In this document: piece by piece, positions 170-24,935 of the stretch
How the letters are laid out: each line of letters starts with the position of its first letter
How positions within the stretch are numbered: position 1 is the first letter of the stretch
IMG/VR virus record: IMGVR_UViG_3300020183_000173
Coordinates: 1 to 41,659 of that record
DNA length: 41,659 bases
Strand: one strand, 5' to 3'
Source of the DNA: a virus
The notes under the pieces: model-generated
What the model saw: only the letters and a program-made list of their open reading frames with translations
Database searches by the model: none
Told to the model about the DNA's origin: nothing
Made by a program: the position numbers and the translations under genes

Positions 170-1941
170 TGAGTTTTGTCGTAAAAGATCTCACAGTAAA
201 GAACTTCATGAGCGTGGGCAATGCCACACAGGCCATCAAGTTCAATCGCAAGGACCTTACCCTGGTGCTAGGACAAAATCTAGATCTAGGCGGAGACGAC
301 ACAGGTGCTAGAAACGGCACTGGCAAAACAACCATTATCAATGCCTTGAGTTATGCGTTGTATGGTGAAGCACTCACTCGCATTCGCAAGGAAAACCTAA
401 TCAACAAAACCAATAGCAAGGCCATGATGGTTACCATTGAGTTTGAAAAAGATGGGCAGAGATACAAGATCGAGCGCGGTCGAAAACCAAACACACTGAA
501 ATTTTTTGTTGGTGATCAAGAACAAGAGCAAAAAGACGAAGCTCAAGGTGACAGCAGAGAAACACAGGCAGCCATAGAAAGCCTGTTGGGCATGAGCCAC
601 GACATGTTCAAGCACATTGTTGCTCTCAACACATACACAGAACCATTCCTTAGTCTCAAGGCAGCAGAACAGCGTGTGATGATTGAGCAACTGCTGGGTG
701 TTACTCAGCTTTCAGAAAAAGCCGAAGCTCTCAAAGAACAGATGAAGGCCACAAAGGATGGTATCACCAAAGAAGAATTCCGTATAAAGGCTGTGCAGGA
801 TGCCAACAAGCGCATGGAAGATCAGATCGCAAATCTACAGCGCAGGCAACGACTGTGGCAGGATAAAAAAGCCGAGGACCTGGACAAGTTCACAGCAGCT
901 TATGATGAACTGTGCAAGATTGACATTGAAGCAGAACTGTTGGCACATCAACAGTTGACAGAACACATAACCAAACAAAACAAAATCAAAGAGCTAGAAA
1001 AATACATTGTGCAGAATCAGCGTGACGAACAGCGCGAAACAAAAACCATTGAAAAAATTAAAACTGAAATCCTCAGCTTAAAAGAACATCGGTGTCATGC
1101 TTGTGGACAAGAATTGCATGACAACAATCATGAATTATTGTTATCTGCTAAAGAAAAAGAATTGCAGGATGCTGCATTGAATGCATTGGCTGCAAATACA
1201 CAATACATAGAAAACACCCAGGCCTTGGCTGATCTAGGCAAACTGGACACTGTGCCAGCAACTTTCTATGAACGCGAATCTGATGCATTTGAACATCGCG
1301 CCAGCTTGGGAACTATCTTGAGTCAGATCACTGCCAAGCAGGACGAAGCAGATCCATATGTGGATCAAATAGCAGAAATGAGTGCCAAAGCAGTGGAAGA
1401 AATTAACTATGACGAAATGAATCATTTGAACACACTGCTAGAACATCAGGATTTCTTGCACAAACTGTTGACCAGCAAAGATTCATTTGTGCGCAAACGC
1501 ATCATTGATCAGAATCTTTCTTATCTAAATCAGCGTTTGAGCTACTACTTAGACAAAATTGGTCTGCCGCACACGGTGATATTCCAAAATGATCTTACTG
1601 TAAACATCACAGAACTAGGACGCGAACTAGACTTTGACAATCTCAGCCGAGGCGAACGCAATCGATTGATACTTAGCCTCAGTTGGGCGTTCCGTGATGT
1701 TTATGAAAGTTTGTATCAACCACTGAATCTACTGTTCATTGATGAAGTGGTGGACTCTGGCATGGATGCAAGTGGTGTGGACAGTGCGCTGGGCATACTG
1801 AAAAAAATGTCTCGCGATAGAAACAAGAGCGTGTGGCTGGTAAGTCACAAGGATGAACTGAGCAGTCGTGTGAACAATGTGCTCACTGTGACCAAGGAGA
1901 ACGGATTTACCAGCTATGATACCGACATTGATACCCAATGA
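169..1941 (+). CDS. 46: Recombination endonuclease subunit gp46 (SbcC/Rad50-like ATPase)
   Basis: SMC-type ATPase that works with gp47 to resect DNA ends for recombination-dependent replication. The 590-residue protein has the full Rad50 layout. A Walker A motif (GARNGTGKTT) lies near residue 46. Long charged helical arms (about 180-300 and 320-450) flank a zinc-hook CHAC near residue 309. The ABC signature LSRGER is near 492, Walker B LLFIDEVVD near 521, and an H-loop histidine follows in LVSHKDE. The track frame could begin at a TTG at 166, but the ATG at 169, overlapping the gp47 stop, is the better start. The 3' end overlaps the next gene by 26 bases. Its length is close to T4 gp46 (about 560 residues). 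Confidence 0.95.
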   Translation: MSFVVKDLTVKNFMSVGNATQAIKFNRKDLTLVLGQNLDLGGDDTGARNGTGKTTIINALSYALYGEALTRIRKENLINKTNSKAMMVTIEFEKDGQRYKIERGRKPNTLKFFVGDQEQEQKDEAQGDSRETQAAIESLLGMSHDMFKHIVALNTYTEPFLSLKAAEQRVMIEQLLGVTQLSEKAEALKEQMKATKDGITKEEFRIKAVQDANKRMEDQIANLQRRQRLWQDKKAEDLDKFTAAYDELCKIDIEAELLAHQQLTEHITKQNKIKELEKYIVQNQRDEQRETKTIEKIKTEILSLKEHRCHACGQELHDNNHELLLSAKEKELQDAALNALAANTQYIENTQALADLGKLDTVPATFYERESDAFEHRASLGTILSQITAKQDEADPYVDQIAEMSAKAVEEINYDEMNHLNTLLEHQDFLHKLLTSKDSFVRKRIIDQNLSYLNQRLSYYLDKIGLPHTVIFQNDLTVNITELGRELDFDNLSRGERNRLILSLSWAFRDVYESLYQPLNLLFIDEVVDSGMDASGVDSALGILKKMSRDRNKSVWLVSHKDELSSRVNNVLTVTKENGFTSYDTDIDTQ

Positions 1942-2821
1942 TCACATACGAGTGCTGCATCTAGAATTGACCACGAGATGTCAGGCCAGTTGTCCGCAAT
2001 GTGCTAGAATGGATCCTGCCAGCGGATATCAACAGGATCATGATCTGTCTTTGCAACAGGTGCAAAAATTGTTTTCCATAGAGTTTGTACAACAGTTGGA
2101 CAAGATGTTTGCCTGTGGCAATTTTGGTGATCCAGCAGCCGCACAAGACTGCTTGGCTATTTTTCGTTGGTTTAGAGAAGTCAATCCCAACATAGTTCTA
2201 GGCATGCATACCAATGGTGCTATTCGCGATACAAAGTTTTGGATACACATGGGAGAGCTTTTAAGTGGTGAACTGGACTATTGCGTGTTCAGCATTGATG
2301 GCATGGCCAGCAGCAACGATATCTATCGGCGTGGAGTTATGTGGCATCGTGTGATAATAAACGCCGAGTCCTTTATCAAGCATGGTGGTCGTGCGCACTG
2401 GGACATGCTGGTGTTTGAACACAACCAACATCATGTGGATCACTGTAGAGAACATGCTCGCAAAATGGGCTTTGTGAGATTCCGTACCAAGGTCAGCAGT
2501 AGATTCCAAGAACGACCTATAAAATTTCTAGCACCTCCTGCAGGCTATCAATTCAAACAACACACAGGCCCCATTGAGTGTCATGCTAAAAAAGAACGCA
2601 GCATATATGTTGCTGCCACAGGCGAAATATTGCCTTGCTGTTTTATTGGCAGTGAAATTTTCCGTATGGATTCTACTCTGAAGCATTTGTGTGACCATCC
2701 AGATCAATTGGAACACAGTTGGGTCAAACAACCTCATATGGTATGCACCAAGTTTTGTGCCACAGCAGACGCACAAACAAGATTTGAAAATCAATTTGAT
2801 GAGGATACTGCACTATGCTAG
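1916..2821 (+). CDS. Radical SAM protein with SPASM/twitch-like C-terminus (first of a pair)
   Basis: Probable radical S-adenosylmethionine enzyme of 301 residues. Near the N-terminus the cysteine triad CQASCPQC (C22, C26, C29) matches the CX3CX2C [4Fe-4S] motif. GNFGDP (69-73) occupies the place of the SAM-binding GGEP motif, and FSIDG (about 125-129) fits a later barrel strand. The C-terminal part carries further cysteines (C222, a CC pair at 241-242, C259, C277, C281) around GEILPCC, as in SPASM/twitch domains that bind an auxiliary cluster. The start at 1916 lies inside gp46; AAGGAG ends about 16 bases upstream, a long spacing. The gene overlaps the next, related gene by 7 bases. Substrate unknown; SPASM enzymes often modify peptides, but no precursor peptide is seen. 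Confidence is high for the fold, low for any function. Confidence 0.85.
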   Translation: MIPTLIPNDHIRVLHLELTTRCQASCPQCARMDPASGYQQDHDLSLQQVQKLFSIEFVQQLDKMFACGNFGDPAAAQDCLAIFRWFREVNPNIVLGMHTNGAIRDTKFWIHMGELLSGELDYCVFSIDGMASSNDIYRRGVMWHRVIINAESFIKHGGRAHWDMLVFEHNQHHVDHCREHARKMGFVRFRTKVSSRFQERPIKFLAPPAGYQFKQHTGPIECHAKKERSIYVAATGEILPCCFIGSEIFRMDSTLKHLCDHPDQLEHSWVKQPHMVCTKFCATADAQTRFENQFDEDTALC

Positions 2822-3831
2822 CACTATGGCACTGGCATATAGAAATCAGCAGCAAGTGTACTCTCAGATGTCCGCGATGTGCGCGACAAGAAGTTCCCAA
2901 TGATTTAATCAATACCGAGCTGGATCTAGCGTTTTTTCACAAGAACTTCCCGCCTGCATTCATTGAACAGCATGTGCGCAAGGTTACTTTTTGCGGCGAC
3001 GATGGAGATCCAATATATGCTCATGATCTAGTGCCAGTCATACGCTACTTCAAGAGTTGTGCAGATGTAGAAGTTGTGATTGTTACCAACGGCAGTTATA
3101 GACCGCCAAGCTGGTGGAAAGAACTAGGCTATGCGCTGGATCATGGAGACACGGTGCATTTCAGCATAGATGGTTATGACAATGCCAGCAACAATCAGTA
3201 CAGAGTAAACAGTGATTGGGACAGCATCATGGAAGGCATTGACAGCCTACGAGCCAACAGCGCAGCTAGACTGGTGTGGGCTACCATAGTGTTTGATTTC
3301 AATCAAGACCATCTACACAGGATAGAGCGTCATGCTCGTAGTCGTGGCTGTGATTTTTTACAGCTCACTCGCAGCACTAAATTTGCCAAGGTTTATCCTA
3401 TCTATGGGCCAGAGGACAAATTACAACCTAGAGCAGAATGGATTGCACCTGGCCATAGGTTTGATCGCGAAGTTATACCTTTGGATCGTAAGATTTGGCC
3501 CAAAGCACACAGCGATAATCTTAAATCATGGGATGCTGCACAAGCAGTTTACAAGGACAATCCAATATTGCCCTTGTGCGCTATAGGCAACAAAGGCCTG
3601 TTTATCAACAGCCAAGGACATTTTTTTCCTTGCTGTTGGGTAGCTAATAGATACGAACATAATACAGAATGGATAGAGCGGGGTCGCCAGTTTGACCTAA
3701 CTCAAATCACGCTGTTTGAGGCGTTAAAACACAGTTTTTGGAACACAGAATTTCAAACATTTCGTTGGCAAGAATGCCAAAATAAATGCAATCAAGGAGT
3801 AGTAAATGACAAATATGCTACCGAATGGTAA
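2815..3831 (+). CDS. Radical SAM protein with SPASM/twitch-like C-terminus (second of a pair)
   Basis: A 338-residue relative of the preceding gene. It has CTLRCPRC (C15, C19, C22) as the CX3CX2C cluster motif, FCGDDGDP (59-66) as a GGEP-like SAM-binding element, and FSIDGYD (117-123). At the C-terminus, C255, a CC pair at 273-274 within GHFFPCCW, and CQNKC (321-325) suggest an auxiliary-cluster SPASM/twitch domain. The ATG overlaps the end of the first radical SAM gene by 7 bases, so the two are translationally coupled and may be made in similar amounts. The two proteins differ in the insert between barrel and C-terminus (about 190-250 here), which suggests different substrates or a catalytic/partner division. 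No substrate can be inferred with confidence. Confidence 0.85.
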   Translation: MLALWHWHIEISSKCTLRCPRCARQEVPNDLINTELDLAFFHKNFPPAFIEQHVRKVTFCGDDGDPIYAHDLVPVIRYFKSCADVEVVIVTNGSYRPPSWWKELGYALDHGDTVHFSIDGYDNASNNQYRVNSDWDSIMEGIDSLRANSAARLVWATIVFDFNQDHLHRIERHARSRGCDFLQLTRSTKFAKVYPIYGPEDKLQPRAEWIAPGHRFDREVIPLDRKIWPKAHSDNLKSWDAAQAVYKDNPILPLCAIGNKGLFINSQGHFFPCCWVANRYEHNTEWIERGRQFDLTQITLFEALKHSFWNTEFQTFRWQECQNKCNQGVVNDKYATEW

Positions 3832-3883: not shown

Positions 3884-4399
3884 ATGACATCATTACAAAA
3901 AGCCAAAGGAAACGCCTGGGAGCGTAGGGTAGCAGACCACCTTACTGTAACCTACGGAGAACGCTTTATTCGCGTTCCGCACTCTGGCGCTTATATTGGT
4001 GGTGCAAATGCCAATCGCAAAGAGATCTTGCACGAAGGACAGATCAGGAGCTTTAAGGGGGATATTATCCCCGGTCAAAGTTTTCCAAAGTTCAACGCTG
4101 AGTGCAAAAGTTATAAAGACTTTCCATTTCATCAACTCTTTCAAGGCTCATGTAAGCAACTAGACGAATGGATTGAACAGTGTATGGATGTCGCTGACCA
4201 GGGTGACTTCAATATCATATTCATGAAATTCAACCGCAAAGGCATGTTTGTAGCAGTACAGGCACAGCCCAACACAACTTCCCTTACTTTTACAAGACAC
4301 TTTAATTATGGCTCCCAGAAACATGGACACTGGTTCATCATGGATTACGACACATTTTGGGAATTGAACGCAGACGCTGTGAAACAGCTTTGCAAATAA
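3884..4399 (+). CDS. PD-(D/E)XK nuclease, Holliday-junction-resolvase-like
   Basis: A 171-residue protein with the active-site pattern of the PD-(D/E)XK superfamily. An N-terminal helix KGNAWERRVADHL carries a conserved glutamate. It is followed by RVPHSGA, KGDI (D60) and the E-X-K motif in NAECKSY (E73, K75), then a helix starting FHQLF. This arrangement is seen in RecU/Hjc-type resolvases and VRR-NUC-like enzymes. It lies 52 bases after the radical SAM pair in the same direction as gp46/gp47, consistent with processing of recombination intermediates; it could stand in for the unrelated T4 endonuclease VII, but that is inference. The start has only a weak upstream AAGG. A role as a simple DNA-end nuclease is the main alternative. 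Confidence 0.7.
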   Translation: MTSLQKAKGNAWERRVADHLTVTYGERFIRVPHSGAYIGGANANRKEILHEGQIRSFKGDIIPGQSFPKFNAECKSYKDFPFHQLFQGSCKQLDEWIEQCMDVADQGDFNIIFMKFNRKGMFVAVQAQPNTTSLTFTRHFNYGSQKHGHWFIMDYDTFWELNADAVKQLCK

Positions 4400-4780
4400 C
4401 GGTAACAAGCTAGCGCAGGCCAATTTCTTGCGCCCGGAAACCTGGATCTAGGATCGCAGGGAGGGTAAGTCTCTTGCCGTAAAGAGCACTCAACTACTAC
4501 CCGCAAGGATGAAGATCGCAAGTGCCGCGATTTAGTTGTTTGAATAGGATAAAGGCCTAAAAGACGCAGTAGCGATACTGCACGGTTTGTAAACATGTTA
4601 GCGTATGAGTGCAAACCCGCCGTTGTAAAGACGGAGCTCGAGGTACCGGACAACCGCCTCTGTAATGCTCTAACGCTAAGTGACTGTGCCACTCGGATGA
4701 AGCTACAGCTCTTAAATTTGCCCTGTGCGGGCAAAGTGTGACCGATTGATCTGGATGAAACTTAAATCGCTTCAGCGATT
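4400..4780 (+). ncRNA. Candidate structured non-coding RNA (no known family recognised)
   Basis: The 435-base gap between the nuclease gene and the minus-strand gene holds at least nine short-range helices: 4413-4419/4427-4433 (loop CCAATTT); 4463-4470 with 4493-4502 enclosing 4471-4475/4482-4486; 4513-4519/4527-4533; 4566-4571/4576-4581 closed by a GCGA tetraloop; 4584-4590/4611-4617; 4620-4623/4631-4634; 4640-4643 plus 4647-4649 with 4654-4660; 4717-4723/4729-4735; and 4765-4770/4775-4780. Loop bases 4598-4604 (TTAGCGT) also complement 4673-4679 (ACGCTAA), allowing a pseudoknot. I do not find tRNA T-loop, tmRNA, RNase P, SRP, 6S, group I or group II core motifs. Strand, ends and promoter are not established; the GNRA-type loop favours the plus strand. 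Confidence 0.5.
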
Positions 4781-4835
4781 AAAAAACAATCCATCACTGA
4801 GCGATAGCGAAAGTGATAGATCTCGCTAGAGATCT
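4781..4835 (-). terminator. Probable intrinsic terminator for the gp26 operon, double hairpin
   Basis: Read on the minus strand, a perfect 7-bp hairpin (4818-4824/4829-4835, loop GCTA or TAGC) overlaps the stop codon of the small gene. A second 6-bp stem follows immediately (4793-4798/4812-4817), and then six T residues at 4786-4781. This is where transcription from the divergent promoter near 5955 should end. The T run is about six bases from the second stem, so efficiency is uncertain. Confidence 0.55.
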
Positions 4836-5053
4836 TAGAAGAATGGTAGTCCTGACTTCTTGGTTGCTTCTATGTTTTCTTTGATAATTTCATTGATGAT
4901 TCGTCGTTCTTCAGGATTTAGTTGCAGAGCTTGTTCATAGTTAATACCTCCACGCATCCACCAGGTAATTCTAATGCTTTCTTCGCGTATGGCTCTTGAC
5001 TCTGTTTCCATGCTGCTCAGTAACAGCTCAATTTCCTCATTAGTGAGTGTCAA
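4835..5053 (-). CDS. Small conserved phage protein downstream of gp26 (possible tail/baseplate assembly factor)
   Basis: A 72-residue, helical, charged protein. Its start overlaps the end of the gp26-like gene by 4 bases (ATGA type), so it is translationally coupled to it. The segment WWMRGGINYEQAL, followed by NPEERRIINEIIKEN and a C-terminal KKSGLPFF, looks like a small protein that accompanies gp26 in aquatic T4-like phages, by recollection rather than a search. A link to the baseplate-hub assembly factor gp51 is possible, but T4 gp51 is much longer and I see no specific motif. It may alternatively be a chaperone-like partner of gp26. Confidence 0.6.
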   Translation of the reverse strand: MTLTNEEIELLLSSMETESRAIREESIRITWWMRGGINYEQALQLNPEERRIINEIIKENIEATKKSGLPFF

Positions 5054-5925
5054 GAGCCTAGCCCGAAAAAACCCGCATAATCAAACATCACATTTATAGT
5101 GAGTTCTCCTTGGCAGCTTTGACATGCTACCTTGCTGGGTTTTAGATTTGCAACATCAGTAGCTGATGCCAATGCATTTTGTATTTTGGTAAATGTTTTT
5201 GCGTCAATCTTGTCGTAGAATTCTCTAAGAAACGCAGGATCTGATATGCGCTCGCCAGTTTCTACCAGTTCTATGTACTCCGTGGAATTGGCCATTACTT
5301 CAGATCCTAGTCCTGTGATTTTGTCCAATTGTATGGTCACTGCTGCTCGTTGATCATCTTCATCGGGCAGTGCATCAATGGCTTGAGCACTTTTTTGTAG
5401 TTCGTACCCAACTCTACCCATACGATTGGCCTGTGTGTAGTTTTGTGGTTGAAACTTCACGTTCATGACATCAAATTGCTCAACATTGTCAAAGTCAGGG
5501 CAGCGCAAACTGTCCATGGTCTCACGAAGATCCATGGCATAGGTGTGTTCGGCACCACAGTGCGGGCAAATTTGATCAAAATCCATGCTGTGTCCGTAGC
5601 TGGCAATGCGCAATGCAATCAAGCAAGCATCCACATCCACAGTGGGCATGAGCCAGGCATTTTTGATGTTGGGCACACAGCTTTGTAAGACATCAACTAC
5701 ACCTTGTCCGTTGATCAACGCATCTGGAGTGCGCAGTGTGATTTCGTCCTTGTTGGTCAGCGGATACACAGGCAGCTCACCATTTTCTGGCATGTCCAGC
5801 GCACCTTCTGGATAGTATTTGCCTTTACTGGGTAATTCTATGTAAATTGCGGGTGTTCTAAACAGGCGTGACAGCGGATTAAATTTGACTGCAGGGGCTA
5901 GAGTAGCATGTGGTTCTGTGCTCAT
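5050..5925 (-). CDS. 26: Baseplate hub subunit gp26-like (T4_baseplate family)
   Basis: A 291-residue protein beginning with a Ser/Thr/Pro-rich region and then IYIELPSKGKYYPEG, the characteristic opening of the T4 gp26 family. The central part has a Cys-X2-Cys (CPHCGAEH, about residue 138) and the C-terminal part another (CQSCQGEL, about 270), so a four-cysteine zinc site is likely. T4 gp26 is about 208 residues, so this version is longer. It should act in the central hub of the baseplate. The start ATG has TAGGAAC upstream on the minus strand and lies 30 bases after a GATAAATA late promoter. It is expressed with the small downstream gene. Confidence 0.85.
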   Translation of the reverse strand: MSTEPHATLAPAVKFNPLSRLFRTPAIYIELPSKGKYYPEGALDMPENGELPVYPLTNKDEITLRTPDALINGQGVVDVLQSCVPNIKNAWLMPTVDVDACLIALRIASYGHSMDFDQICPHCGAEHTYAMDLRETMDSLRCPDFDNVEQFDVMNVKFQPQNYTQANRMGRVGYELQKSAQAIDALPDEDDQRAAVTIQLDKITGLGSEVMANSTEYIELVETGERISDPAFLREFYDKIDAKTFTKIQNALASATDVANLKPSKVACQSCQGELTINVMFDYAGFFGLGS

Positions 5926-5935
5926 ATTTTGTTCC

Positions 5936-5943
5936 TATAAATA
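5936..5943 (+). promoter_or_regulatory. T4-type late promoter TATAAATA
   Basis: Exact match to the T4 late-promoter element recognised by gp55-loaded RNA polymerase. It lies about 46 bases upstream of the ATG at 5989 and drives the large tail-type gene. Confidence 0.75.
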
Positions 5944-5954
5944 GTTGATACAGA

Positions 5955-5962
5955 TATTTATC
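5955..5962 (-). promoter_or_regulatory. T4-type late promoter GATAAATA (minus strand)
   Basis: One base from the consensus, read on the minus strand 30 bases upstream of the gp26 start. It points at the oppositely directed late promoter 12 bases away. Confidence 0.6.
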
Positions 5963-5988
5963 GGTAAAAAACCTGAGATTTAGAGAAT

Positions 5989-8900
5989 ATGGCATACGAT
6001 CGCAATACTGAACTGCTTGAACGATTAGTATCATCGATGGAGGGCGGCCGTTATGGTGGCGGGGGTCGCAGCGGCCAACAACCAACCAATGATGAAATAA
6101 ACACACTGTTACAGCGCAGTAAAGAAGCTGCCAAAGAGTTCAATTCTCTAAAAAATGGCATACGATTTACTACCAAACAGCAGCTGGCGTTTAGAGATGC
6201 ATCCAGTGATGCAGCTGGCAAACTAAGTGAAGTCAATCATGTGCTGGCACAGTACCGCAACGGTCTAATCCCACTCAGCAAAGAACAAAAGAAAGCTCTA
6301 GAAGCCGAACGGGCTAGACTTGCCAAACTAGACGAAGGTACCGCAGCCAACGAAAAATTCAAGAGTGGTGTAATTGCACTAAGACAAAATCTAGAGCAGT
6401 TTGGCACACAAATGATCCAGGGCAATGCCCAGGTCGTTCAAGCTATTCAAAGTGGTGCCAGTGGCTTTACCATAGCTGCACAGAGCATGATTGCTTCTAT
6501 CCAGCTGCAAAATACCGCAGTTCAGACCATGACAGGACTTGCCACCCAGGCCGGTGGCGCTTTGATGAACTTTGGTGGCATAATAGGCAAGGTAGCAGGT
6601 GCTGGTATAATTCTGGGTGCCCAGTACATGGGTCTGCAGAGTGCTCTCAAGGCACAGGCCAAGCAGCTACAGATTCAAACTCTCATGGCCGGTGGCGAAC
6701 AGATTCTCAAAGCCTACCAAGACATGACCGCTGCTGGTGCCAGCTATGTTGGCGGATTACAGCAGGTTCAAAACGCCCTGAAAGGCAGTGACTACACCTT
6801 GCAAGATTTCAGTGCCATGGTCAAAGCCAACTCAGAAACTCTTGCCAAAGCCAACATGAGTGTGGGAGATGCTGCTCTCATGTTTGGTCGTGTGGGTGCT
6901 ATCTTTGATCGAGATGGCAAGAAAATGCGCAAAGAGCTGCTAGCACTGGGCTTCTCATACACCGAGCAAGGTGCGCTCATGGCCGATGTCATGGCAAACA
7001 TGCGCCGTCAAGATCCAACTGCACAAATGACTGCCAATGATGTGGCTCAACGCACAAGAGAGTATGCGGTACATTTGGCTACCATATCAGACCTCACAGG
7101 CAAAAACGCACGGCAACTCATGGAAGAAGGACGCAAGAAAACTGCACAGTTGGCTTTCCAAAACTTCCTAGAAACATTTACTGATCCTAAGATCAGGGCA
7201 CAAGTAGAAGAAGCAGTAGCTGGTATTGCTGATCCGATCTTGAGACAGAATGTCATGGAACGACTGACCTTTGGTGGTGTGCTAAACAAGACTGGTGCTG
7301 TCATAGAGGCAGTCAATCCTGCATTTGAAACATTAAGTGCTGAGTTGGCCGCGGCAGCCCACGCTGGCAAAGGCGCAGGAGATTTTTTCAAGATTCAGGA
7401 AAAGCACAGCGCAGCAGTAAACAAAGGATTCCTTAGTCAGAGAGAATTTAACTTGGCTGCGGCTGCACCAGGCAGCAAAATTGAAGCCCTAGGCCATGCG
7501 GCAGCAGAGTCAAGAACTTACATCAATCAAATGAGCACTGCGGCTAAAACTTTTGCTGAGAAACTTGCCATTGGCACAGGAACAACTCCTACCACAGGTT
7601 TGGCTACACAATTGATTGACATGACTGTGATTGGAAAACAATTAGAAAAAGCCTTGCAGGACGGAGTTATTGCCAGGCTGCACATACTCACGGGACATCT
7701 AGGCGATTACAATGCCAAAATCCAGTCCATTCTAGATGCACAAGTGCCCAGTGTGAAAAAGATCATGGAAACGCAATTAAACATGATGAAGGACTTTGCT
7801 AGACAATATTGGCAGGAAATCAAAAAGTACGCTGAAGACTATTGGAACAGCCTAGGAACATGGACCAAGGCCGCAATCATTGGCGGTGGCGTAATTGTGG
7901 GCCTTATTGGAACTTTCTACATGCTAGGCAAAGCCGCTGCTTTTGCCAAAACGGCTATGGATGGCTTTAGATTTCTCACCGGCAGAGGATTGCCAGGCAC
8001 TGGTGGCACAGTTGAAAGTGGAAGATCGCGAATCCCAGGGGGCGGGAGACAGCCCCCTGGCCGCAGTGGACCCGGTGGATCGGTACCAACACCAGGCGGG
8101 CAGGGCGGTGGGTTTGGTCCTCCAGGAAGATTTGAAAGTTTTCTTTTTAATGTGTTTAGAGCATTGGGCACAGGAGCTGGTGCTCTGATCCAGGGACTCA
8201 TGAGAGGCCTAGCCTTTGGCATTGGTGCATTTGCCAATCCAAAAATTCTACTAGGCGCTGCCATCATGTCCGGTGCTATTGCAGTGCTGGGAGCAGGCAT
8301 AGGGGCCGCTTCATGGATTATGGGCAAAGCACTTCCTACACTGGCAGAAGGTCTTGAAAAATTTCAGCGACTGGACGGCGACAGACTGGTCAAAGCCGGC
8401 AAAGGTGCAGCAGCGGTGGCTGCGGGAGTGGCAGCATTTACTCTACTAGGCACTGCATCAGTGATATCAAATCTATTCAACAGCATTGTAGGTGGGCTTG
8501 GTTCCTTGTTTGGTGTTAAATCGCCATTGGAAAAAATGATGGATTTTGCCAAGGTAGGTCCGGACCTTGAAAAAGGTGGCAAAGGTATGGCATCCTTTAT
8601 GAACTCAATGAAAAGTCTTGAAAACCTTAATGACAAAAAAATATTGGCAGTTGCTGAGTCGTTGGAAAAAATTAAGGGGGCTCTGACCAAAGGATTCTTT
8701 GACTTCTTAAGGTCTGATGTTGATGTCAAAAAATTAGGAGAACTAACAAAAGCGTTACAAGGTATGCAAGGCGGTCTTTCTCCAACAATTACTGCAGATG
8801 CTAAAGTTAGCAAAGGACTTGGTTTGTGGAATGGGCTAAGGACGATTGATGGTATGCTCCTGGTAGAGCTAGGACCTAAGTCAATTGATGGCTTAATTAA

Positions 8901-9241: not shown

Positions 9242-10981
9242 ATGACCTGGAAAAAATATTTTAAGAGTTCGAACCTGCCCAGCAACATCAGCGGCAGCAT
9301 GAGTGTGCTGGCCAATGGCGGCGGCGCAGAGTATGTACCACAGGCTGGCTATCGCAACTGGCAAAGCAACTTGCCCGAACTGTATATTGGCCATCCAAAT
9401 CGTGTGGAGCGATACAATCAGTACGAACAAATGGACATGGACAGTGAAGTAAATGCAGCACTGGACATTCTCAGCGAATTCAGCACTCAGGCCAATGACG
9501 AAAACGGTACCGCATTCTCTTTGGATTTCAAAGAACAGCCCACAGAAAACGAAGTAAAGATCATAAAAGAACAACTGCAACAGTGGATCAGCCTGAATCA
9601 GATGAATCGCAGAATATTCAAAATATTCCGCAGTGTGATCAAGTACGGCGACCAGGTGTTTGTGCGAGACCCAGAAACTTTCAAACTGTACTGGGTAGAA
9701 ATGAGCAAGGTTGTCAAGATTATTGTCAACGAAGCCAAGGGCAAAGAACCTGAACAGTATATTATAAAAGATATCAATCCTAATTTAATGAATCTTACTG
9801 TGACAGCGGTGGCTGCCACAGACACATATCTTAATCATCCGCAGGTGGGTGGACCCAGTGGCAGCTATGTGCAACCACAGGCACCCTACACCGGCGGCAG
9901 CAGATTTTCTCAAGCGCAAAATGAGTGCGCAGTGAATGCTGAACATGTGCTGCACATGAGTCTGACCGAAGGCCTAGATGTATATTGGCCTTTTGGCAAC
10001 TCTGTGTTAGAAAATGTGTTCAAGGTATTCAAACAAAAAGAACTACTAGAAGATGCTATTATCATCTATCGTGTGCAGCGAGCACCAGAGCGTAGAGTTT
10101 TCAAAATTGATGTAGGTAACATGCCTGCTCACATGGCAATGGCTTTTGTGGAGCGCATCAAGAACGAAGTGCATCAACGCCGTATTCCCACACAAACTGG
10201 CGGTGGTACCAACATGATGGATGCCACTTACAATCCGCTGAGTCAAAATGAAGATTACTTTTTTCCTACCACCGCAGACGGTCGCGGAAGCACAGTAGAA
10301 ACACTGGCAGGAGCCAGTAATCTAGGTGAGATCACAGATCTGCATTTTTTCACCAACAAGTTGTTTAGAGGACTGCGTATTCCCAGCAGCTACTTGCCCA
10401 CAGGACTGGACGACGGAGCTGCCGGCAGTTTTACAGACGGTAAAGTAGGCACAGCACTGATTCAAGAATGGCGTTTTAATCAGTACTGTTTGCGATTACA
10501 GAATACGATTGCTGAATATATAGACAAAGAGTTCAAGCTCTACATGCGATGGCGTGGTATTAATGTAGATGGTCAACTGTTTGAACTCAAATTCAATGAG
10601 CCACAAAACTTTGCACAATACAGGCAAGCTGATGTGGACATGGCTCGAATCAACACATTCACACAATTGGAGCAGTTTCCTTACTTCTCCAAGCGTTTCT
10701 TAATGAGTCGTTATCTAGGCCTAACAGAACAAGAAATGACAGAAAACGAAACCATGTGGGCTGAAGAACAAGGTGATGTGGAAACAGCGCCTGCTGATCC
10801 TGCAGGTTTGCGTAGTGTAGGTGTTACGCCTGGTGGTATTCAAGGCGATCTAGAAGCAGCTGAACCTCCTGCTGAGGGAGATGAAGGAGCCATGGCACCT
10901 GATGCATCAGGATTAGGCAGTCCTGTACCCGGAGGCGGTGCACCACAGGCCCCGGCAGCATCCATACCAACTCCGGTATAA
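9242..10981 (+). CDS. 20: Portal vertex protein gp20
   Basis: The 579-residue portal protein forms the dodecameric DNA channel at the unique capsid vertex and nucleates prohead assembly. The segment starting NRVERYNQYEQMD with DSEVNAALDILSEF matches the conserved N-terminal clip/wing region of T4-type portals. Later FRGLRIPSSYLP and GKVGTALIQEWRF are typical of the same family. The C-terminal 60 residues are Pro/Gly/Ala-rich and probably disordered. T4 gp20 is 524 residues. It is followed by the small, gp67-like, gp21, gp22 and gp23 genes in T4 order. The TAA stop is embedded in the next late promoter. Confidence 0.95.
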   Translation: MTWKKYFKSSNLPSNISGSMSVLANGGGAEYVPQAGYRNWQSNLPELYIGHPNRVERYNQYEQMDMDSEVNAALDILSEFSTQANDENGTAFSLDFKEQPTENEVKIIKEQLQQWISLNQMNRRIFKIFRSVIKYGDQVFVRDPETFKLYWVEMSKVVKIIVNEAKGKEPEQYIIKDINPNLMNLTVTAVAATDTYLNHPQVGGPSGSYVQPQAPYTGGSRFSQAQNECAVNAEHVLHMSLTEGLDVYWPFGNSVLENVFKVFKQKELLEDAIIIYRVQRAPERRVFKIDVGNMPAHMAMAFVERIKNEVHQRRIPTQTGGGTNMMDATYNPLSQNEDYFFPTTADGRGSTVETLAGASNLGEITDLHFFTNKLFRGLRIPSSYLPTGLDDGAAGSFTDGKVGTALIQEWRFNQYCLRLQNTIAEYIDKEFKLYMRWRGINVDGQLFELKFNEPQNFAQYRQADVDMARINTFTQLEQFPYFSKRFLMSRYLGLTEQEMTENETMWAEEQGDVETAPADPAGLRSVGVTPGGIQGDLEAAEPPAEGDEGAMAPDASGLGSPVPGGGAPQAPAASIPTPV

Positions 10982-10984
10982 ATA
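10977..10984 (+). promoter_or_regulatory. T4-type late promoter TATAAATA
   Basis: Exact consensus overlapping the portal stop codon (TAA at 10979-10981) and 23 bases upstream of the ATG at 11008. Confidence 0.75.
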
Positions 10985-24560: not shown

Positions 24561-24932
24561 ATGCCAACACAAGTACAGTTCCGTAGAGGAACAACGACCC
24601 AAAACAACAACTTTACAGGTGCGGTGGGCGAAATCACGGTAGATACACAGTTGGATGTGTTGCGTGTTCACGACGGCTCCACAGCAGGCGGCTTTGCGCT
24701 AGTTGGAGCCACTGCTACTCAAACCCTTACAAACAAAACACTGACAAGCCCAACAATTAACAGTGCCACTTTGAACAACTCTGTGTTCACCGGCTCTTCC
24801 AATTTTTCTGGAGTAGGCACGTTTGATGGAGTCACGTTGGCCAATGTTAATTTGGCTACCCAAACATTCCAAGGCAACTCAATCATGCCAAAAAGCTACA
24901 TTGATTCCATTGGAATAGTGTTCGGTGTATAA
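24561..24932 (+). CDS. Short fibre-type protein with an Mtd-N-like domain (copy 1)
   Basis: A 123-residue protein whose first 50 residues (QVQFRRGTTTQNNNFTG, GEITVDT, LRVHDGSTAGG) match the small domain found at the start of many phage receptor-binding proteins, including the major tropism determinant of Bordetella phage. TQTLTNKTLTSPTIN follows, a motif that links fibre domains, and the chain ends MPKSYIDSIGIVFGV. A close paralogue is at 37053. Both are separate short genes here, so they may be fibre adaptors or tips. No diversity-generating element is present. Confidence 0.75.
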   Translation: MPTQVQFRRGTTTQNNNFTGAVGEITVDTQLDVLRVHDGSTAGGFALVGATATQTLTNKTLTSPTINSATLNNSVFTGSSNFSGVGTFDGVTLANVNLATQTFQGNSIMPKSYIDSIGIVFGV

Positions 24933-24935
24933 ATA
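24928..24935 (+). promoter_or_regulatory. T4-type late promoter TATAAATA
   Basis: Exact consensus embedding the TAA stop (24930-24932) of the preceding gene, 34 bases upstream of the ATG at 24970. Confidence 0.75.

Follow-up and report, generated by a model that had tools for sequence, protein, structure and literature searches.

The question raised by this locus is what a phage keeps in a stretch without a convincing gene, between a resolvase gene and a convergent ORF. In the window, the whole 41,659-nt stretch of freshwater phage DNA that was analysed (IMG/VR record IMGVR_UViG_3300020183_000173), the gap extends from the stop of the RusA-like resolvase (4399) to the end of a convergent 72-aa ORF (4835). 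A preliminary description had placed a hairpin-dense structured RNA at 4400–4834 in this gap, beside recombination nuclease and radical SAM genes. The gap and its neighbours were found as described (the radical SAM genes at 1916–3831, phrog_21308), but the element overshoots these limits slightly, as helix P0 starts at 4399 and 4835 is the last base of the final hairpin (Table 1). The two radical SAM genes are adjacent, lie between a gp46-like gene and the resolvase, and are an unusual cargo for a recombination cluster. A hidden gene in the gap, also absent from the preliminary description, was rejected because the reading frames of the two internal ORFs are not conserved; their length changes by a non-multiple of three in 24/37 and 25/37 homologues, and they stay open in only 4 and 1.

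In phages, the RNA is placed after whichever gene closes the gp46 operon and faces the baseplate gene convergently; in the homologues of group A it begins about 5–20 nt past the stop codon of the preceding gene, be it the resolvase or another. The next gene downstream is encoded on the other strand, both in the window and in almost every homologue with an identified downstream neighbour, which makes a role as 5′ UTR in phages unlikely. Scans for promoters and terminators in the region gave nothing decisive on the + strand, and T4-late-type promoter motifs were not significantly enriched in the window, being too few to stand out. The T4 late promoter core TATAAATA occurs on the + strand at 5936–5943, 10977–10984 and 24928–24935, each 24–46 nt ahead of an ORF (at 5989, 11008 and 24970, respectively), a count not above chance.

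Comparison with Rfam identified the first 134 nt of the element as Polynucleobacter-1 (RF01718). The match at 4408–4541 reached 112 bits against a gathering cut-off of 37 bits and spans the full length of the model (1–141), so that the earlier statement that no standard RNA class fits does not hold for this 5′ domain; the 3′ core (~4590–4835, ~245 nt) was matched by no Rfam model. Polynucleobacter-1 was tabled in 2010 by Weinberg et al. as probably an RNA and probably cis-regulatory (cis-reg “y”), with sources in Burkholderiales and in fresh water or estuary (PMC2864571); in the literature found, RF01718 was mentioned by this discovery paper only. The proposed cis-regulatory 5′ UTR role misfits the convergent downstream gene found here. 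Moreover, the RF01718 model does not describe the whole RNA: it is without helix P0, pseudoknot P1′, the 3′ core with PK1 and PK2, the matched repeats and the terminal hairpins, covarying structure runs to 4835, and many homologues do not have the RF01718 domain. At least three different 5′ ends alternate on the wider 3′ core with its pseudoknots, and the RF01718 domain is one of them; it is limited to group A and was found in 7/24 tested larger phage contigs (one copy each), whereas the core is widely shared. Groups B and C carry different 5′ parts, and no Rfam family matched their loci at E-values up to 0.1. The novelty claimed at the outset thus applies to part of the element: the RF01718 5′ part is already known, while the ~245-nt core, the pseudoknots, the matched repeats and the bacterial islands described below are new relative to Rfam and the papers found.

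Homologues were collected by a protein search with the resolvase, which gave 80 viral loci, followed by iterated nhmmer with window positions 4400–4860. This yielded 65 matches, with homologues behind the resolvase in 63/80 viral loci. The motif GGTACCGGACAACCGCC alone retrieved, among the matches listed, at least 120 sequences (120/120 true homologues), and for a second conserved pattern used alone 66/66 retrieved sequences were true homologues; a looser pattern search of genome contigs, with a pattern that was too loose, gave 118 matches and none with the RNA. Carriers of the RNA number in the hundreds among phages and include some mobile islands of bacteria; the phage carriers are a large group of T4-like aquatic phages with a single copy per tested contig. 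Among cultured phages no DNA match was obtained for group A, B or C, nor did the resolvase neighbourhoods of SCTP-2, PA5oct and Phosso match the RNA. An RNAalifold-based model of only 4 pairs (R1) likewise failed to detect the element in cultured phages, and its support for group C was weak (E-values of about 0.001 to 0.4). In Pseudomonas phage PA5oct the corresponding place (4478–5992 of the retrieved locus) is a stretch of ~1.5 kb with tiny annotated ORFs only; it has no match to the RNA and is possibly a different non-coding element.

The + strand of the gap folds better than 100/100 dinucleotide shuffles (z = -3.72), and folding of the - strand is weaker (z = -2.28). In group A (37 sequences) a structure of 79 pairs was derived, with P0, PK1 and PK2 as pseudoknots, in which 90.9% of cells are paired, compared with 77.8% in shuffled controls and 36–44% when the structure was slid along the alignment; the slid control flatters the result because the structure was drawn from the same sequences, a dependence that does not bear in the same way on the shuffles and the number of distinct pair types. 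Double changes were present in 49 pairs, with 380 double-change cells versus 109 ± 9 in shuffles. In group B (26 sequences) 85.0% of cells are paired and 139 double-change cells were counted versus 47.5 ± 6.3; in helix P9, 3/4 pairs show double changes in group A and 4/4 in group B. Because this covariation, pseudoknots included, is found in both groups, the aligned sequences identify the element beyond reasonable doubt as a real RNA, and chance hairpins are ruled out. The structured phage RNA proposed in the preliminary description is thus strongly supported by compensatory changes, and the three hairpins it named (P7, P12 and the 3′-terminal hairpin) are present at the positions given. In the module at 4793–4817 the inner pair switches from GC/GC to AC/GT, and its cap resembles tandem sheared G-A pairs.

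Table 1. Positions in the window of the RNA element, its helices and repeats, and the adjoining genes.
Feature	Position	Strand	Observation
RusA-like Holliday junction resolvase, upstream	3884–4399	+	phrog_244, E 9e-19; variable neighbour, outside the RNA
Whole structured RNA element	4399–4835	+	nhmmer homologues and covariation; ~437 nt
Helix P0, 5′ strand	4399–4402	+	pseudoknot beyond RF01718; pairs with 4477–4480; A-U, G-C, U-A and G-U variants
Helix P0, 3′ strand	4477–4480	+	covariation
5′ domain, RF01718 Polynucleobacter-1 (optional, group A)	4408–4541	+	cmscan, 112.1 bits
Hairpin P1 (4413–4417/4429–4433)	4413–4433	+	100% of cells paired; double changes in 4/5 pairs
Helix P4 (4491–4496/4533–4538)	4491–4538	+	100% of cells paired; double changes in 4/6 pairs
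Hairpin P7, 6 bp, GCGA loop (GCAGTA-GCGA-TACTGC)	4566–4581	+	double changes in 6/6 pairs
Helix P8 (4584–4589/4612–4617) with inner P8a (4594–4596/4605–4607)	4584–4617	+	96–97% paired
Pseudoknot PK1, 5′ strand	4598–4604	+	pairs with 4673–4679; double changes in 7/7 pairs, 95% paired
Pseudoknot PK1, 3′ strand	4673–4679	+	covariation
Pseudoknot PK2, 5′ strand	4622–4626	+	pairs with 4650–4654; paired 98.9% in group A, 99.4% in group B
Pseudoknot PK2, 3′ strand	4650–4654	+	within the most conserved loop, GGTACCGGACAACCGCC
Helices P9 (4634–4637/4667–4670) and P10 (4640–4643/4657–4660)	4634–4670	+	
Matched repeat, copy 1, GGATGAA, flank CTC	4695–4701	+	same as copy 2 in 112/124 non-redundant homologues
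Hairpin P12 (TTTGCCC/GGGCAAA), between the two repeats	4717–4735	+	91.9% paired, six main pairs
Matched repeat, copy 2, GGATGAA, flank TCT	4753–4759	+	mutual information, tree, new sequences
Stem capped by GA / 2 bp / GNNA loop / GA module	4793–4817	+	pattern in 94/123 homologues
3′-terminal hairpin AGA...TCT (AGATCTC/GAGATCT), end of element	4818–4835	+	in 113/123 homologues
Convergent 72-aa ORF, downstream	4835–5053	-	conserved neighbour; adjoins baseplate hub gene
Baseplate hub gene	5050–5925		phrog_150

The 3′ core carries two 7-nt direct repeats that are the same within nearly every RNA and change fast between RNAs, with more than 20 alleles of this tag seen. In an unsupervised mutual-information scan the strongest column pairs of the core were 4701/4759, 4695/4753 and 4699/4757 (z = 18.2, 14.6, and 14.4); all three couple like with like, with Watson-Crick pairs at about 0%, and outrank every true base pair. 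On a tree built without the repeat columns we counted about 50 lockstep changes (51 for the 7-mer, 53 for the joint state), with ~26 changes at position 1, 19 at position 5 and ~23 at position 7, nearly always in both copies, and mixed states were few (3/105 at position 1, 0/105 at position 5). As the first counts of repeat identity had favoured matching candidates, newly fetched sequences were parsed by an identity-blind and thus unbiased rule: 91/98 had the same 7-mer twice, versus 13% when copy 2 was drawn from another RNA, and several of the seven exceptions were parsing errors. The rule CTC-N7 ... TCT-same N7 alone found the RNA in 8/8 phage contigs, with 3 other matches in ~1.46 Mb and 1 in 0.61 Mb of bacterial control sequence. 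The coupling is parallel and in register and extends to positions -6, -5, +9, and +10, in a count that took only candidates with at least 5/7 matches and therefore inflates the values within the 7-mer. The bases at -6 and -5 are correlated, yet often unlike, and the direct flanks differ between the copies (CTC versus TCT; +8 mostly G versus A). Two simple candidates were rejected: flank pairing is too weak for copy 1 to be a simple hairpin loop, and half of the alleles start with AGA rather than the GGA of CsrA/RsmA-type sites.

Searches for a sequence complementary to the tag gave no candidate partner. No complement was found in the RNA, no enrichment in the 5–10 kb flanks, and none in the conserved contexts of six islands; across 8 phage contigs no conserved complementary site was found beyond the RNA itself and one pair resembling a coding coincidence. 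An RNA partner tolerating G-U pairs is disfavoured because mixed states are rare.

The RNA has a second home in bacteria. RF01718 scored above the cut-off in 6/398 sampled genomes of the family Burkholderiaceae and, in integrase-bearing islands, in 19/186 genomes (~2 Mb) of one genus of this family, probably Polynucleobacter, and in 0/369 genomes sampled from the class. The island copies also possess the 3′ part of the RNA. Besides the RNA, which sits between divergent genes, the conserved island element contains two integrases, one of them large, together with DUF6641, an AAA ATPase akin to phage clamp loaders, and unknown genes. No capsid, tail or terminase family was detected among ten island proteins scanned; the islands thus have integrases and no recognised structural gene, as satellites do, and their gene content suggests that they are satellite-like, resembling a satellite of a T4-like phage. 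Flanks of the island RNA are nearly constant, and the tags are the same in 16/18 parsed copies, with five alleles. Rare island RNAs with unlike tags (L714, AACAAAA/TCCAAAA; L727, GGCGAAA/AGCGAAA) are possible intermediates or defective copies. Upstream of the island RNA lies a conserved stretch TTTTATTAGGTTT..CTAAATAACT (TATAAATAACT in L732), which may be a T4-late-type promoter. In the regions L716–L721 (~7–12 kb around the RNA) we observed a conserved integrative element that encodes DUF6641, the clamp-loader-like ATPase and a pair of tyrosine recombinases and is a candidate for a new satellite family; several genomes contain two RF01718 copies.

We consider it most likely that the element is a bivalent recognition RNA common to phages and satellite-like islands, and rank recognition by a changing partner above contact between the copies and above copying; the full reading, whose partner and mechanism are hypothetical, we would put at a little less than an even chance. 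Two equivalent modules would each present the 7-nt tag to one co-changing partner, protein or nucleic acid, and, if a single partner reads both tags, both must match. The fast switching of tags and their presence in islands would fit a phage-satellite race or the sorting of self from non-self, with the RNA acting in replication, late expression or packaging. The phage RNA would form the 3′ end of the transcript from the gp46 operon, and in islands the RNA would be transcribed from its own promoter.

The repeats might instead touch each other, as a parallel like-base helix (A-A, G-G, U-U, C-C) within one RNA or between two, in which case the constraint would lie in their being identical and a third partner would not exist. 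The in-register parallel coupling with almost no Watson-Crick pairs, the searches that found no partner for the tag, and the scarcity of the mixed states that a G-U-tolerant RNA partner would permit all speak for such contact. On the other hand, C-C and G-G pairs are hard to fit together in one frame, the correlated flanks at -6 and -5 are often not identical, and we know of no natural RNA with a seven-pair parallel like-base helix. We regard direct contact as unlikely, even counting in its favour the unusual A-A helix in the OLE RNA dimer (PMC12286853).

The repeats could also be kept the same by copying (template switching, strand transfer or repeat-templated conversion), without any shared recognition. 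Identity would then be required while the sequence is nearly free, as observed, and hairpin P12 sits between the copies. DRT2-type ncRNAs show template-jump repeats and, like the RNA described here, have short identical direct repeats next to a hairpin within one ncRNA; they differ in requiring a reverse transcriptase, and this enzyme (PF00078) was found in 0/20 phage contigs, with controls positive in 3/14. Simple copying is further disfavoured because the constant close flanks stay unlike, though a copy tract should cross them, and unlike bases are often the ones coupled at -5 and -6. Altogether, copying appears distinctly improbable. About as improbable is that the locus acts as DNA, in replication, recombination or packaging, with the repeats as a recognition or crossover element. 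Phages and integrative islands share the element, as cis sites often are shared, recombinase genes flank the island copy, and the phage copy is placed at the gp46 end of the replication/recombination cluster; however, dozens of compensatory changes with many G-U pairs, together with the pseudoknots, favour RNA, the repeat spacing of 50–58 bp is short for direct-repeat recombination, and phage copies have no adjoining recombinase. Least probable is a cis-regulatory or mRNA-end element, either stabilising or terminating the gp46-operon mRNA as part of its 3′ UTR, which would suit a start shortly after a stop codon and a closing hairpin, or serving as a 5′ leader, as put forward for Polynucleobacter-1, an RNA listed as probably cis-regulatory (PMC2864571), since the downstream gene is convergent, the upstream gene variable and the island genes divergent on both sides, and a plain 3′ end needs neither pseudoknots nor matched tags.

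The closest comparison among large phage RNAs is with GOLLD and ROOL, ornate pseudoknotted RNAs that phages and prophages encode and that have no assigned function; in GOLLD, too, the 3′ part is constant and the 5′ part less conserved (PMC12286853). However, GOLLD and ROOL measure 650–800 nt or more compared with the ~437 nt of the phage RNA, they are located near phage tRNA genes while the window contains none, and matched direct repeats are a feature of the phage RNA that they do not share. No GOLLD or ROOL Rfam match was obtained at E-values up to 5 in 4380–4900, or up to 0.1 in five homologous loci.

With this analysis an orphan Rfam fragment becomes a full RNA with a defined fold, which is widespread in aquatic phages and also occurs in bacterial islands. 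In evolutionary terms the lockstep tags give a strong signal for which ordinary base pairing does not account, and two matched tags changing together suggest a recognition system that nobody has described; what could be new in a categorical sense is the matched-repeat rule. We hold it possible, if rather doubtful, that the element is an RNA specificity system of a new kind, a scaffold with two identical exchangeable tags, paired as a parallel like-base helix or read by a co-varying partner, by which phages and satellite-like islands would distinguish their own system from foreign ones. Should satellites employ the RNA against their helper, or together with it, this would represent an RNA-based layer of phage-satellite conflict.
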